Of a stretch of 64,000 nt of DNA, positions 44,771-48,123 are shown piece after piece. The stretch comes from Sphingorhabdus sp. M41 (GTDB taxonomy: Bacteria; Pseudomonadota; Alphaproteobacteria; Sphingomonadales; Sphingomonadaceae), in contig NZ_CP014545.1 in NCBI RefSeq assembly GCF_001586275.1, forward strand, positions 2,196,501 through 2,260,500, in the 5' to 3' direction. Within the stretch, counting starts at the first letter, position 1, and every line of letters starts with the position of its first letter. A program made the translations under genes and the position numbers. The notes under the pieces are model-generated. The model saw only the letters and a program-made list of their open reading frames with translations, was not told the DNA's origin and ran no database searches.

Positions 44771-45687
44771 AGCGCTTCTCTCACGATTATCTCGACCAGC
44801 TGTTCATAGCTAATGCCCATCTGCTTCGCCTGTTCGGGGACCAGGCTGAGCGGGGTCATGCCGGGCTGGGTATTGGTTTCCAGCACGAACAGGCCGGCTG
44901 CGCCCTGTTCATCATCCCAGCGGAAATCGGTCCGCGAAGTCCCCTTGCAGCCCAGAACCTGATGGGCGCGAAGCGCATAGTCGAGACATAATTTTTCTAT
45001 ATCTTCGGGAATTTCGGCGGGGCAGACATGCTGGGTCAGGCCTTCGGTATATTTGGCGGCATAGTCGTAGAAGCCCTGCGCGGTTTTCAATTCGGTCACG
45101 CAAAGCGCCTTGTCGCCCAGAACGGCCGTGGTCAGTTCGCGGCCCTTGATGAAAGGCTCGGCGAGCAATTCGTCAAATTCCTGCCAGGGACCAGTGACAT
45201 CGCGGCCAATCGGATTGCCGTAATTGCTGTCATCGGTCACGATTGCGACGCCGACAGACGAGCCTTCGTTGACCGGTTTCAGGACATAGGGCCGGGGCAG
45301 CGGATCGACCTCATACAGGCTGGCACTGGAAACAATCTTGCCCTTGGGCATCGGGATGCCTGCAGGGACCAGCTGCTGCTTGGTCAATTCCTTATCGATT
45401 GCGATCACCGATGTGGCGAGTCCGCTATGGGTATAAGGGATCTGCATCAGATCGAGCATACCCTGAACGCTGCCATCTTCACCGGGGACGCCGTGCAGCG
45501 CGTTGAACACTACATCGGGCCGGATACCGGCCAGAACCTGCGCAACATTGCGATCCATGTCGACGCGAGTCACCTTATGGCCGTTTTTCTCGAGCGCATC
45601 GGCGACGCCATTGCCGCTCATAAGCGACACTTCGCGTTCAGCAGACCAGCCGCCCATCAGGACGGCGACATGAAGTTTGGCAGTCAC
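44767..45687 (-). CDS. ddl: D-alanine--D-alanine ligase
   Basis: 306 residues, ATP-grasp ligase of B-type length. VAVLMGGWSAEREVSLMSGN, NALHGVPGEDGSVQGMLDLM and VLETNTQPGMTPLSLVPEQA are the standard signatures. It makes the D-Ala-D-Ala dipeptide used by MurF. ATGA overlaps on both sides with murB and ftsQ. Confidence 0.97.
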   Translation of the reverse strand: MTAKLHVAVLMGGWSAEREVSLMSGNGVADALEKNGHKVTRVDMDRNVAQVLAGIRPDVVFNALHGVPGEDGSVQGMLDLMQIPYTHSGLATSVIAIDKELTKQQLVPAGIPMPKGKIVSSASLYEVDPLPRPYVLKPVNEGSSVGVAIVTDDSNYGNPIGRDVTGPWQEFDELLAEPFIKGRELTTAVLGDKALCVTELKTAQGFYDYAAKYTEGLTQHVCPAEIPEDIEKLCLDYALRAHQVLGCKGTSRTDFRWDDEQGAAGLFVLETNTQPGMTPLSLVPEQAKQMGISYEQLVEIIVREAL

Positions 45688-46580
45688 GATTCATCACCTA
45701 CTCGTTGAATTTCCCACTGCAATTCGACGCCCGAATGGGCCTTGACCCGTTTGCGCACTTCGTTACCCAGCGCTTCAATATCGGCGGATGTCGCGCCGCC
45801 AAGATTGATCAGGAAATTGCAGTGTTTTTCCGACACTTGCGCCTGGCCCATCTGCAGGCCGCGGCAGCCGGCTTCGTCGACCAGCTGCCAGGCTTTCTTG
45901 CCCTCGGGATTTTTGAAGGTGGAGCCGCCGGTTTTGGTGCGGAGTGGCTGCGAGGCCTCTCGCTCTTCGGCAATGCGCTTCATTTCAGCGCCGATAATTT
46001 CGGGATCGCCGCTTGTGCCCTGAAAGGTTGCGCTGACGACAATCGCGCCTTCGGGCAGCGCGGAGTGGCGATAGGTGTAACCCATTTCGGCCAGCGGGAT
46101 TGTCACCAGATCGCCATTGCGCAGGATCACGTCGGCGCTTTCCAATATGTCGCAGACTTCGCGGCCATAGGCGCCGGCGTTCATTCGGACAGCGCCGCCG
46201 ATGGTGCCGGGAATACCGCGCAGAAATTCCATTCCGGCAATGCCATTGTCGCGGGCGGTGCTGGCGGCCGATATGCCCGGCGCACCGGCGCCGCAGCGCA
46301 GCGTCAGCCCATCTGCTTCGATAGATGCAAAGGCCTTGCCCAATCTGACCACCACGCCCTGGATGCCCCCGTCGCGGATGATCAGGTTGGACCCCAGGCC
46401 AAGCGGCCAGACCGCTATCGCCGGATCGAGATCGCGGAGAAATTGCTGCAAATCGTCAATATCCTTTGGCTCGAACAGCCATTGCGCAGACCCGCCGCTC
46501 TTGAACCAGACGAGCGGTGCCAGTGGCGCGTTTTCTGTCAGCTTGCCGCGGGTTTCGGGCATGGTCGCAACAGCGTTCAT
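45684..46580 (-). CDS. murB: UDP-N-acetylenolpyruvoylglucosamine reductase
   Basis: 298 residues from ATG 46580. FAD-enzyme motifs are PLVWFKSGGSAQWLFEP, LGLGSNLIIRDGGIQG, GIPGTIGGAVRMNAGAYG and SQPLRTKTGGSTFKNPEGKK. It makes UDP-MurNAc. The start is ambiguous: the frame is open upstream to 46742 through a repeat (reading VRPEPVEG), overlapping murC by 26 bases. ATG 46580 overlaps the stop of a 47-codon frame by ATGA, which fits the junction style of this cluster. Confidence 0.95.
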   Translation of the reverse strand: MNAVATMPETRGKLTENAPLAPLVWFKSGGSAQWLFEPKDIDDLQQFLRDLDPAIAVWPLGLGSNLIIRDGGIQGVVVRLGKAFASIEADGLTLRCGAGAPGISAASTARDNGIAGMEFLRGIPGTIGGAVRMNAGAYGREVCDILESADVILRNGDLVTIPLAEMGYTYRHSALPEGAIVVSATFQGTSGDPEIIGAEMKRIAEEREASQPLRTKTGGSTFKNPEGKKAWQLVDEAGCRGLQMGQAQVSEKHCNFLINLGGATSADIEALGNEVRKRVKAHSGVELQWEIQRVGDES

Positions 46581-46720
46581 CGAACGAGCCCGCGCTGAGA
46601 GAAACCGTTCGCACTGAGCTTGTCGAAGTGCATTTCTCGGCTTGAGGCGTCCTTCGACAGGCTCAGGACGGACGGGCACAGGGACATTTTCTGGATAAAA
46701 GGGAACAGAGACAGGCTCAT
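46577..46720 (-). CDS. 47-codon frame bridging murC and murB, mostly repeat-derived
   Basis: ATG at 46720 overlaps the murC TGA as ATGA, and its own TGA at 46577-46579 overlaps the murB ATG as ATGA, exactly like the other junctions of the cluster. The encoded peptide (begins [15 protein letters not shown], ends GLVR) is largely translation of the palindromic repeat and is unlikely to have a biochemical function. Its translation could carry ribosomes from murC to murB, keeping coupling despite the insertion. That it is translated is inference; it is below usual gene-caller size. Confidence 0.5.
46606..46675. repeat. Palindromic repeat (CTTCGACAGGCTCAG type) between murC and murB
   Basis: Two inverted arms, GTTCGCACTGAGCTTGTCGA (46607-46626) and CCTTCGACAGGCTCAGGACG (46651-46670), face each other. 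Single related arms occur at about 18080-18100 and 18464-18484. It separates two genes that in this cluster style would be expected to overlap. No stop codon occurs within it in the murB frame or in the frame of the 46577-46720 mini-gene. Confidence 0.85.
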
Positions 46721-48123
46721 TTGCGCGCCTCCGCGATACCATCAGCGAGTCCGGCTGCCCATTTGGTAATATCCCCTGCCCCGAGGCAGATGATCATGTC
46801 CTGCGGCTGTGCCTCTTCGGCCAGTCGTGCAGCAAGAGCCTTCTGGTCGGCCACGGTTTCCGCGAGGCGATGGCCACGCTTTTTCAGCCCGGTGACCAGT
46901 GCCTCGCTGTCAACACCTTCGATGGGATCCTCGCCGGCGACATAGACCGGCGTCACGAACACCATGTCGGCGTCGTTGAAGGCGCCCTGGAACTCTTCCA
47001 TATGGTCGCGCAGCCGGGTGAAGCGGTGCGGCTGGACCACGGCGATCACGCGGCCCTGCGCGCCTTCGCGCGCGGCGGACAGCACGGCCTGTATTTCGAC
47101 CGGATGATGGCCGTAATCGTCGATGATCGTCACGCCGTCGACTTCGCCGACCTTGGTGAAGCGCCGCTTGACGCCGCCGAAATGATCGAATCCCTTGGCG
47201 ATCTGCTCGTCGCTGATGCCCATTTCCAGCCCGACCGCCACTGCGGCAATTGCGTTCTGGACATTATGACGGCCCGGCATCGGCAGTTCGATACCGGCGA
47301 TCCTTCTGGTCTCACCATCGCGGTCGCGGACATCGACGTCAAACCGGTTGCCACCGGGAACCGGTGTGACATTGATCCCCTTGACGTCGGCCTGGGCGGA
47401 GAAACCATAAGTGATGATCCGCCGGTCGCGGATGCGCGGCAGCAGGGCCTGGACCTCGGGATGGTCGATGCACAGGATCGCTGCGCCGTAAAAGGGGACA
47501 TTTTCGACAAATTCGAGGAAACTGTCCTTGATCCTGTCGAAGCTGCCATAATGATCGAGATGCTCGGCGTCGATATTGGTCACGACCGCGATCGTGCCGT
47601 CGAGCCGCAGGAAACTGCCGTCGCTTTCGTCGGCCTCGATCACCATCCACTCGCCAGCGCCAAGCCGGGCGTTCGAGCCATATTGGTTGATGATGCCGCC
47701 GTTGATGACAGTCGGATCAATGCCGCCGGCGTCCAGCATGGCCGCGACCATCGATGTCGTGGTGGTCTTGCCATGGGTGCCGGCAATCGCGATTGTCGAT
47801 TTCAGCCGCATCAGTTCAGCCAGCATTTCCGCCCGGCGAACCAGTGGAATACGACTGGCCAGCGCTGCTTCCACTTCCGGATTGCCGCGTTTGACAGCAG
47901 TTGATGTGACAACAACAGCCGTGCCCTCGACATTGTCGGCGCTATGGCCGATCTTCACGTCAATGCCCTTCGCACGCAGGCCCTCGACCACATAGCTTTC
48001 GGAAATATCGCTGCCTTGCACCTGATAGCCCATATTGTGCATCACTTCGGCGATCCCGGACATGCCGATGCCGCCAATGCCGACGAAGTGAATCCGGCCA
48101 ATATCCGTGCCGACACCCTTCAC
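46717..48123 (-). CDS. murC: UDP-N-acetylmuramate--L-alanine ligase
   Basis: 468 residues. [20 protein letters not shown] at the start, the ATP loop [13 protein letters not shown] (113-125) and [11 protein letters not shown] are diagnostic. It adds the first amino acid of the peptidoglycan stem. ATGA overlap with murG upstream. Confidence 0.98.

Follow-up and report, generated by a model that had tools for sequence, protein, structure and literature searches.

The closest described system to the one reported here is that of the MIRUs (mycobacterial interspersed repetitive units), mobile repeats that, according to a review, insert at start codons, whereupon their internal ORF becomes coupled at a -4 spacing (PMC12548453). 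A second review reports that they have no dyad symmetry and hold small ORFs that overlap their neighbours (PMC4473831). Two further systems are related: the Rickettsia palindromic elements (RPEs), together with other coding MITEs, which are palindromes of ~100 to 150 bases that are open when they lie inside genes (PMC2229807), and short upstream ORFs, which deliver ribosomes to the following gene via translational coupling (PMC12548453). Among the literature searched, we found neither the repeat sequences described below nor their translations, no paper on small proteins between murC and murB in sphingomonads and no study of palindromic repeats in sphingomonads.

Here, we analysed a stretch of 64,000 nucleotides from Sphingorhabdus sp. 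M41 (the window), in which an earlier sequence-only reading had noticed a 47-codon frame crossing a repeat between murC and murB. The locus resembles the MIRU system, as these reviews portray it, in that a dispersed repeat lies at a same-strand gene junction and holds a small frame, which overlaps both neighbours with -4 coupling; as in MIRUs, the frame has the same orientation as the contiguous ORFs and overlaps them with its extremities. In contrast, the element of the window has inverted arms and a hairpin, whereas MIRUs are described there without dyad symmetry, and we therefore do not file it as a MIRU. It also differs from MIRUs in its occurrence in the Sphingomonadaceae, in the involvement of more than one repeat family and in having a variable flank that separates the repeat from the DTGA. 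With the RPEs, it shares the property of a small palindromic repeat that stays open, and the MurB extensions presented below resemble RPEs; however, RPEs are described as fused in frame within a protein gene, whereas the frame in the window starts and stops by itself as a separate cistron. The proposed function, ribosome delivery rather than a product, is that of the coupling upstream ORFs, but here the ORF is repeat-derived, lies inside an operon and replaces a direct overlap. Judged by its spacing, the window junction would also belong with translationally coupled gene pairs, which have a stop/start spacing of -4 or -1. MIRUs are the known precedent; the elements studied here are palindromic and recur independently.

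The murC-murB junction of the window and its repeat

The spacer from murC to murB in the window is 136 bases long and contains the palindromic repeat. The features of the junction, in window positions, are:

46717..48123, minus strand: murC (NCBIfam TIGR01082)
45684..46580, minus strand: murB core (NCBIfam NF010480), its frame open up to an ATG at 46742
46577..46720, minus strand: 47-codon relay reading frame with ATGA at either end (from the sequence; a strict relay in 9/9 insert carriers of the genus)
46717..46720, minus strand: ATGA, murC stop and relay start (from the sequence)
46577..46580, minus strand: ATGA, relay stop and murB start, with no upstream Shine-Dalgarno match of at least 3 bases (from the sequence)
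46728..46732, minus strand: GGAGG, Shine-Dalgarno-like, 7 bases 5' of the relay start; the same place precedes murB in relatives lacking an insert
46605..46675, no strand assigned: palindromic dispersed repeat, defined by a 13-base arm motif and the fold, its outer limits judged by eye

The 47-codon frame with ATGA at both edges was recovered exactly as it had been read, from 46720 to 46577 on the minus strand. Its ATG (46720-46718) overlaps the TGA of murC (46719-46717), and its TGA (46579-46577) overlaps the ATG of murB (46580-46578). The ATGA-type chain that had been reported around the junction is likewise present: 4-base overlaps link nine pairs of surrounding ORFs and one further pair at 50641-50638 (ATGA), which by its position is a candidate for ftsW/murD. 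The observation that the murB frame is also open through the repeat was correct as well. Given both ATGA edges, the chance of a relay at this junction was ~0.2 to 0.35 in shuffles, and the window junction taken alone is a weak sequence case against chance. Inside the insert, the search for sigma-70-type promoters found 0, and the one terminator-like site (0.4 expected) lies outside it, on the opposite strand at 46517-46529. The possibility that the insert is a known Rfam RNA was rejected, as its two matches to one family lie far under the gathering score of that family.

The palindromic nature of the repeat was confirmed. Its arms are GAGCTTGTCGAAG at 46616-46628 (plus strand) and GAGCCTGTCGAAG at 46652-46664 (minus strand), and a strong RNA hairpin is predicted at the insert (z -2.64, with 2/200 shuffles as good), which has an inverted-repeat score of 12. 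A one-base mismatch between the arms explains why an automated inverted-repeat search of 46500-46800 with seed 9 reported no repeat. The 13-base arm motif occurs at 90 sites in the 3.34 Mb genome, compared with 1 for the reversed control. The element was located at 54 places, 6 of which lie inside a called gene (by rough gene calls). As a high-copy short intergenic palindrome, and on this criterion alone, the element can be likened to REP and REPIN sequences. In most copies read, two forward frames of the element are open. The left flank, from the first ATGA to the repeat, has no second genomic copy at E <= 1. In filled sites, both edges look like DTGA copies, a hint at a possible target duplication; the flank that lies between DTGA and the repeat is variable. 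DTGA is also said to be the target site of MIRUs, reportedly so described by Supply et al. in 1997.

Inserts between murC and murB in the genus and the family

Within the genus, of which Parasphingorhabdus marina (L066) is one member, 30 of the 32 sampled genomes gave a murC-murB junction; G014 was without murB and in G002 murB was truncated. In 21 of the 30, the genes overlap directly without an insert, and all 21 show ATGA where murC ends; murB aligns from its first codon at this point in 19 of them, and a few codons away from it in L045 and L059. The remaining nine junctions carry inserts from two repeat families, namely the repeat type of the window in five (L031, L037, L038, L039 and L042) and another palindrome in four (L035, L036, L040 and L060). 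Their stop-to-start distances of 139, 139, 127, 139, 106, 112, 112, 112 and 127 bases are all 1 mod 3. Under our strict rule, which accepts only links of -4 or -1 spacing and frames of at least 12 codons, a frame is coupled at both ends in 9/9 carriers, so that the pattern read in the window holds when relatives with and without the repeat are compared. GGAGG is found 7 bases before the relay start in eight of the nine, and is absent in L060. Insert presence needs 5 changes on the genus tree, at least 3 of them forced by well-supported branches, and gain and loss of the insert are therefore indistinguishable. A neutral simulation of frame openness in the genus alone gave a weak signal (product 0.06, from four partly overlapping pairs).

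We extended the survey to 230 loci of the family (L031-L260), of which 228 were usable after L118 and L132 had been dropped. These junctions are the best-scoring end of the MurB match list rather than a random sample, and some genomes occur twice. Identical inserts were counted once, and dinucleotide shuffles with the insert ends kept served as the null. A looser continuity test, allowing any start within 7 bases, passed most shuffles of some inserts, and the strict rule was used instead. By this rule, the short junctions were continuous in 114/114 cases (best-scoring MurB loci, some genomes twice). The 105 distinct longer inserts are of three main kinds: those with a real gene of ~65 aa, those that extend MurB at its N terminus and those with a relay frame derived from a repeat. 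Palindromic inserts were continuous in 31/32 cases, a set that includes L101 (score 12, with a real small gene); with L101 excluded, the count is 30/31, compared with 9.6 expected. Of the 30, 16 are relay frames, 12 extend MurB in frame and two are mixed, the small gene in L135 and L151 preceding a MurB extension that bears a repeat. When only one insert per lineage and element was kept, 23/24 were continuous against 7.4 expected, and with one per genus or species 13/14 against 4.3 (tail 1.5e-7), the lineages having been grouped manually with the outcomes already known. On this comparative sequence evidence, coupled frames across repeats are in excess of chance. The original claim that such a frame would seldom arise by chance hence stands for the comparison and is weak for the window junction on its own.

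Non-palindromic inserts passed the strict rule in 68/73 cases; the five that fail (L067, L076, L136, L170 and L188) are coupled only under looser spacing or length. Among further junctions analysed apart (L289-L300), 11/12 were continuous and L291 failed the strict rule. In L192, which lies below the palindrome threshold, a two-step chain leads from a repeat relay through a small gene to murB. At L248, a 118-base gap before murB has no relay and is left untranslated.

Palindromic repeats were also seen in frame as N-terminal extensions of MurB at L083, L105, L116, L120, L193, L228, L232, L242 and L252. In-frame extension of this kind, seen in other genera, is the second route by which continuity through the junction is kept.

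Repeats at other gene junctions

Of the 54 element places in the genome, we examined the 31 that are same-strand gaps below 300 bases; at L261 the downstream start was shifted by hand by 18 bases, to the next in-frame ATG. In 17 gaps, a start codon overlaps the upstream stop; strict relays or extensions were counted in 8 of these (3.2 expected) and relaxed relays in 11, compared with 4.3 expected (tail 2.8e-4; 10/16 and tail 8e-4 without the window's own gap, both tails being computed from rounded probabilities). Where the upstream stop overlaps no start, the strict and relaxed rules give zero by definition, and the loose rule alone compares the two groups. Under the loose rule, 12/17 of the start-overlapped gaps keep a relay versus 5.3 expected, whereas only 2/14 of the others do, versus 1.7 expected. 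Since the relay excess is limited to start-overlapped gaps, openness does not come from the repeat alone. The six gaps that fail the relaxed rule are L008, L011, L019, L266, L267 and L276, four of which are above 160 bases. In this genome, nuoK is flanked by two repeat copies, both with strict relay frames (G000 C1, about 1281488-1281954, L264).

Six further junctions were followed through the genus. At nuoJ-nuoK (nuoK identified, nuoJ and nuoL assigned by position), 23/23 relatives without an insert overlap directly and 5/5 carriers have strict relays, including L308, in which the insert is 99 bases shorter and still in register. The suggestion that insertions at other coupled junctions also keep their coupling was thus supported both by this junction and by the loose-rule counts. 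Downstream of nuoK, 2/8 carriers have a strict and 6/8 a relaxed relay, with overlap in 0/19 relatives lacking an insert. The corresponding values upstream of an acyl-CoA dehydrogenase-like gene are 0/13, 12/13 and 0/16, and 5' of a biotin carboxylase gene, where two repeat families occur, 11/16, 15/16 and 1/13. Downstream of the acyl-CoA dehydrogenase-like gene, again with two repeat families, 10/11 carriers have strict relays and 8/18 relatives without an insert overlap. At junctions other than murC-murB, relaxed relays that overlap by 11 to 14 bases or leave a gap of a few bases are common. In the three junctions where relatives seldom overlap (0/19, 0/16 and 1/13), a relaxed relay is present in 33/37 carriers, and an ancestral overlap is therefore not always the condition. 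Pooled over the six junctions, 28/67 carriers have strict and 54/67 relaxed relays.

The 3' junction of the biotin carboxylase gene is, on the sequences compared, the main result against a general rule. Here, 12/12 relatives without an insert overlap, and the carriers have strict relays in 0/14, relaxed relays in 6/14 and no relay in 8/14 cases. The idea that an insert is tolerated only if ribosomes can cross it agrees with the 9/9 murC-murB carriers of the genus and goes too far as a general law, given these eight carriers and L248. Two observations were made at the carboxylase loci (L360-L388). At the 3' junction, the carriers have distances of 90, 93, 96, 111 or 135 bases, which are 0 mod 3 in 11/14, and in six carriers the frame continues for a few codons inside the downstream gene until it reaches its own stop. 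At the 5' junction, two unrelated repeat families have an identical distance of 109 bases, as if one repeat had replaced the other or the length were constrained.

A proposed relay between murC and murB, its rivals and a small gene

We propose that the repeat is probably kept as a termination-reinitiation relay cistron between murC and murB. From the sequences, we infer translation of the frame, the reinitiation mechanism, the dependence of MurB on it and arrival in a direct overlap. In this account, a palindromic, mobile-type repeat would have landed in the ATGA shared by murC and murB, moving murB off the ribosome-delivery site at the murC stop. Ribosomes ending murC would begin anew at the ATG within the first ATGA, where the former GGAGG site is retained, read through the hairpin for 47 codons, terminate at the second ATGA and from there initiate murB. 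Selection would keep the frame open and in register rather than the peptide, and the same solution, or an in-frame MurB extension, would recur in the family with unrelated repeats. Coupling of the gene pairs tested in E. coli and Haloferax was almost lost at distances of ~20 bases (PMC10666635), so that an insert of 136 bases with a hairpin, if left untranslated, should isolate murB. Other gene pairs with weaker distance dependence are cited in a review (PMC12548453). When murB follows a repeat or other relay that is not the small gene, 15/20 murB starts have a Shine-Dalgarno match of at least 4 bases (background 23%), and these starts may not be wholly dependent on coupling. Over the seven junctions, a match of at least 5 bases is found in 7/13 carriers without a relay versus 10/37 with a strict relay, a weak trend.

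The matches at 15/20 relay-preceded murB starts would also fit a different explanation, which we consider unlikely: translation might be needed only to shield the RNA from Rho loading or effects of the hairpin, with murB starting by itself and the exact -4 coupling being incidental. The relaxed relays at other junctions point in the same direction, and in-frame MurB extensions would serve shielding equally, with no need for reinitiation. However, the spacing is exactly -4 or -1 in 9/9 murC-murB and 5/5 nuoJ-nuoK carriers of the genus, and murB of the window has no Shine-Dalgarno match of its own. It is very unlikely that MurB is instead N-terminally extended, starting from 46742 or inside the insert, and that the 47-codon frame is accidental. 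This competitor, already named in the sequence-only reading, draws on the open murB frame of the window and on the repeat-coded extensions of other genera (L083, L105, L120, L228 and others), but in the genus the extension frame is open in only 3/9 carriers, with stops in six, compared with 9/9 for the relay frame; extension thus loses as an explanation in the genus and survives as a second route elsewhere in the family.

A history devoid of selection, in which a stop-poor repeat, a target-site duplication copying ATGA to the edges, luck and descent produced the frames, appears highly improbable. The two open forward frames in most copies and the DTGA-like edges would be expected from it, but a null that keeps ends and composition yields only about one third of the observed rate, unrelated repeat families agree and the same genome has no excess where the upstream stop overlaps no start. 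It is scarcely credible that the 47 codons specify a small protein that has a function, even though a real gene of ~65 aa occupies the same junction in Sphingobium and others, and we rejected this candidate: the peptide of the window has no match in NCBIfam, and its identity to that of other carriers is 51-66% when they share its repeat type and 28-45% when they carry the other one (short gapped alignments). Moreover, relay-frame differences at codon positions 1/2/3 number 472/489/486 (homologous pairs from seven junctions, which share ancestry, so that the counts are descriptive), lacking the third-position excess of murC (1046/632/5522). These equal differences, unlike those of murC, indicate that the frame is conserved and the peptide is not.

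The relay cistron reading carries the MIRU idea beyond mycobacteria, to palindromic repeats in a different phylum. It would offer a natural test of how far operons need stop/start coupling, with unrelated insertions at one junction in many lineages, a translatable track and a drifting peptide, and it would serve as a warning that conserved short ORFs beside repeats can be conserved ribosome tracks rather than proteins. More tentatively, one might speculate that several unrelated palindromic repeats repeatedly land in stop/start overlaps of the Sphingomonadaceae, where they persist as relay cistrons free of content, selected for in-register translatability and not for their product, and steadily supply translated proto-genes and N-terminal extensions. 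The ~65 aa gene between murC and murB could be one that gained a function.

A gene of ~63 to 72 aa lies between murC and murB in many loci of the Sphingomonadaceae, including Sphingobium, Sphingomonas, Blastomonas and others (e.g. L073, L084, L086, L135, L169 and L190). Four members of this family had no match above the cut-off in Pfam or NCBIfam, and the product of many members has a W-x-x-LWG-like end. The gene is real, because 21 Sphingobium-type copies have a third-position excess (differences of 2165/1300/4357 at codon positions 1/2/3). Following this gene, murB has a Shine-Dalgarno match of at least 4 bases in only 5/46 cases, as coupling predicts.
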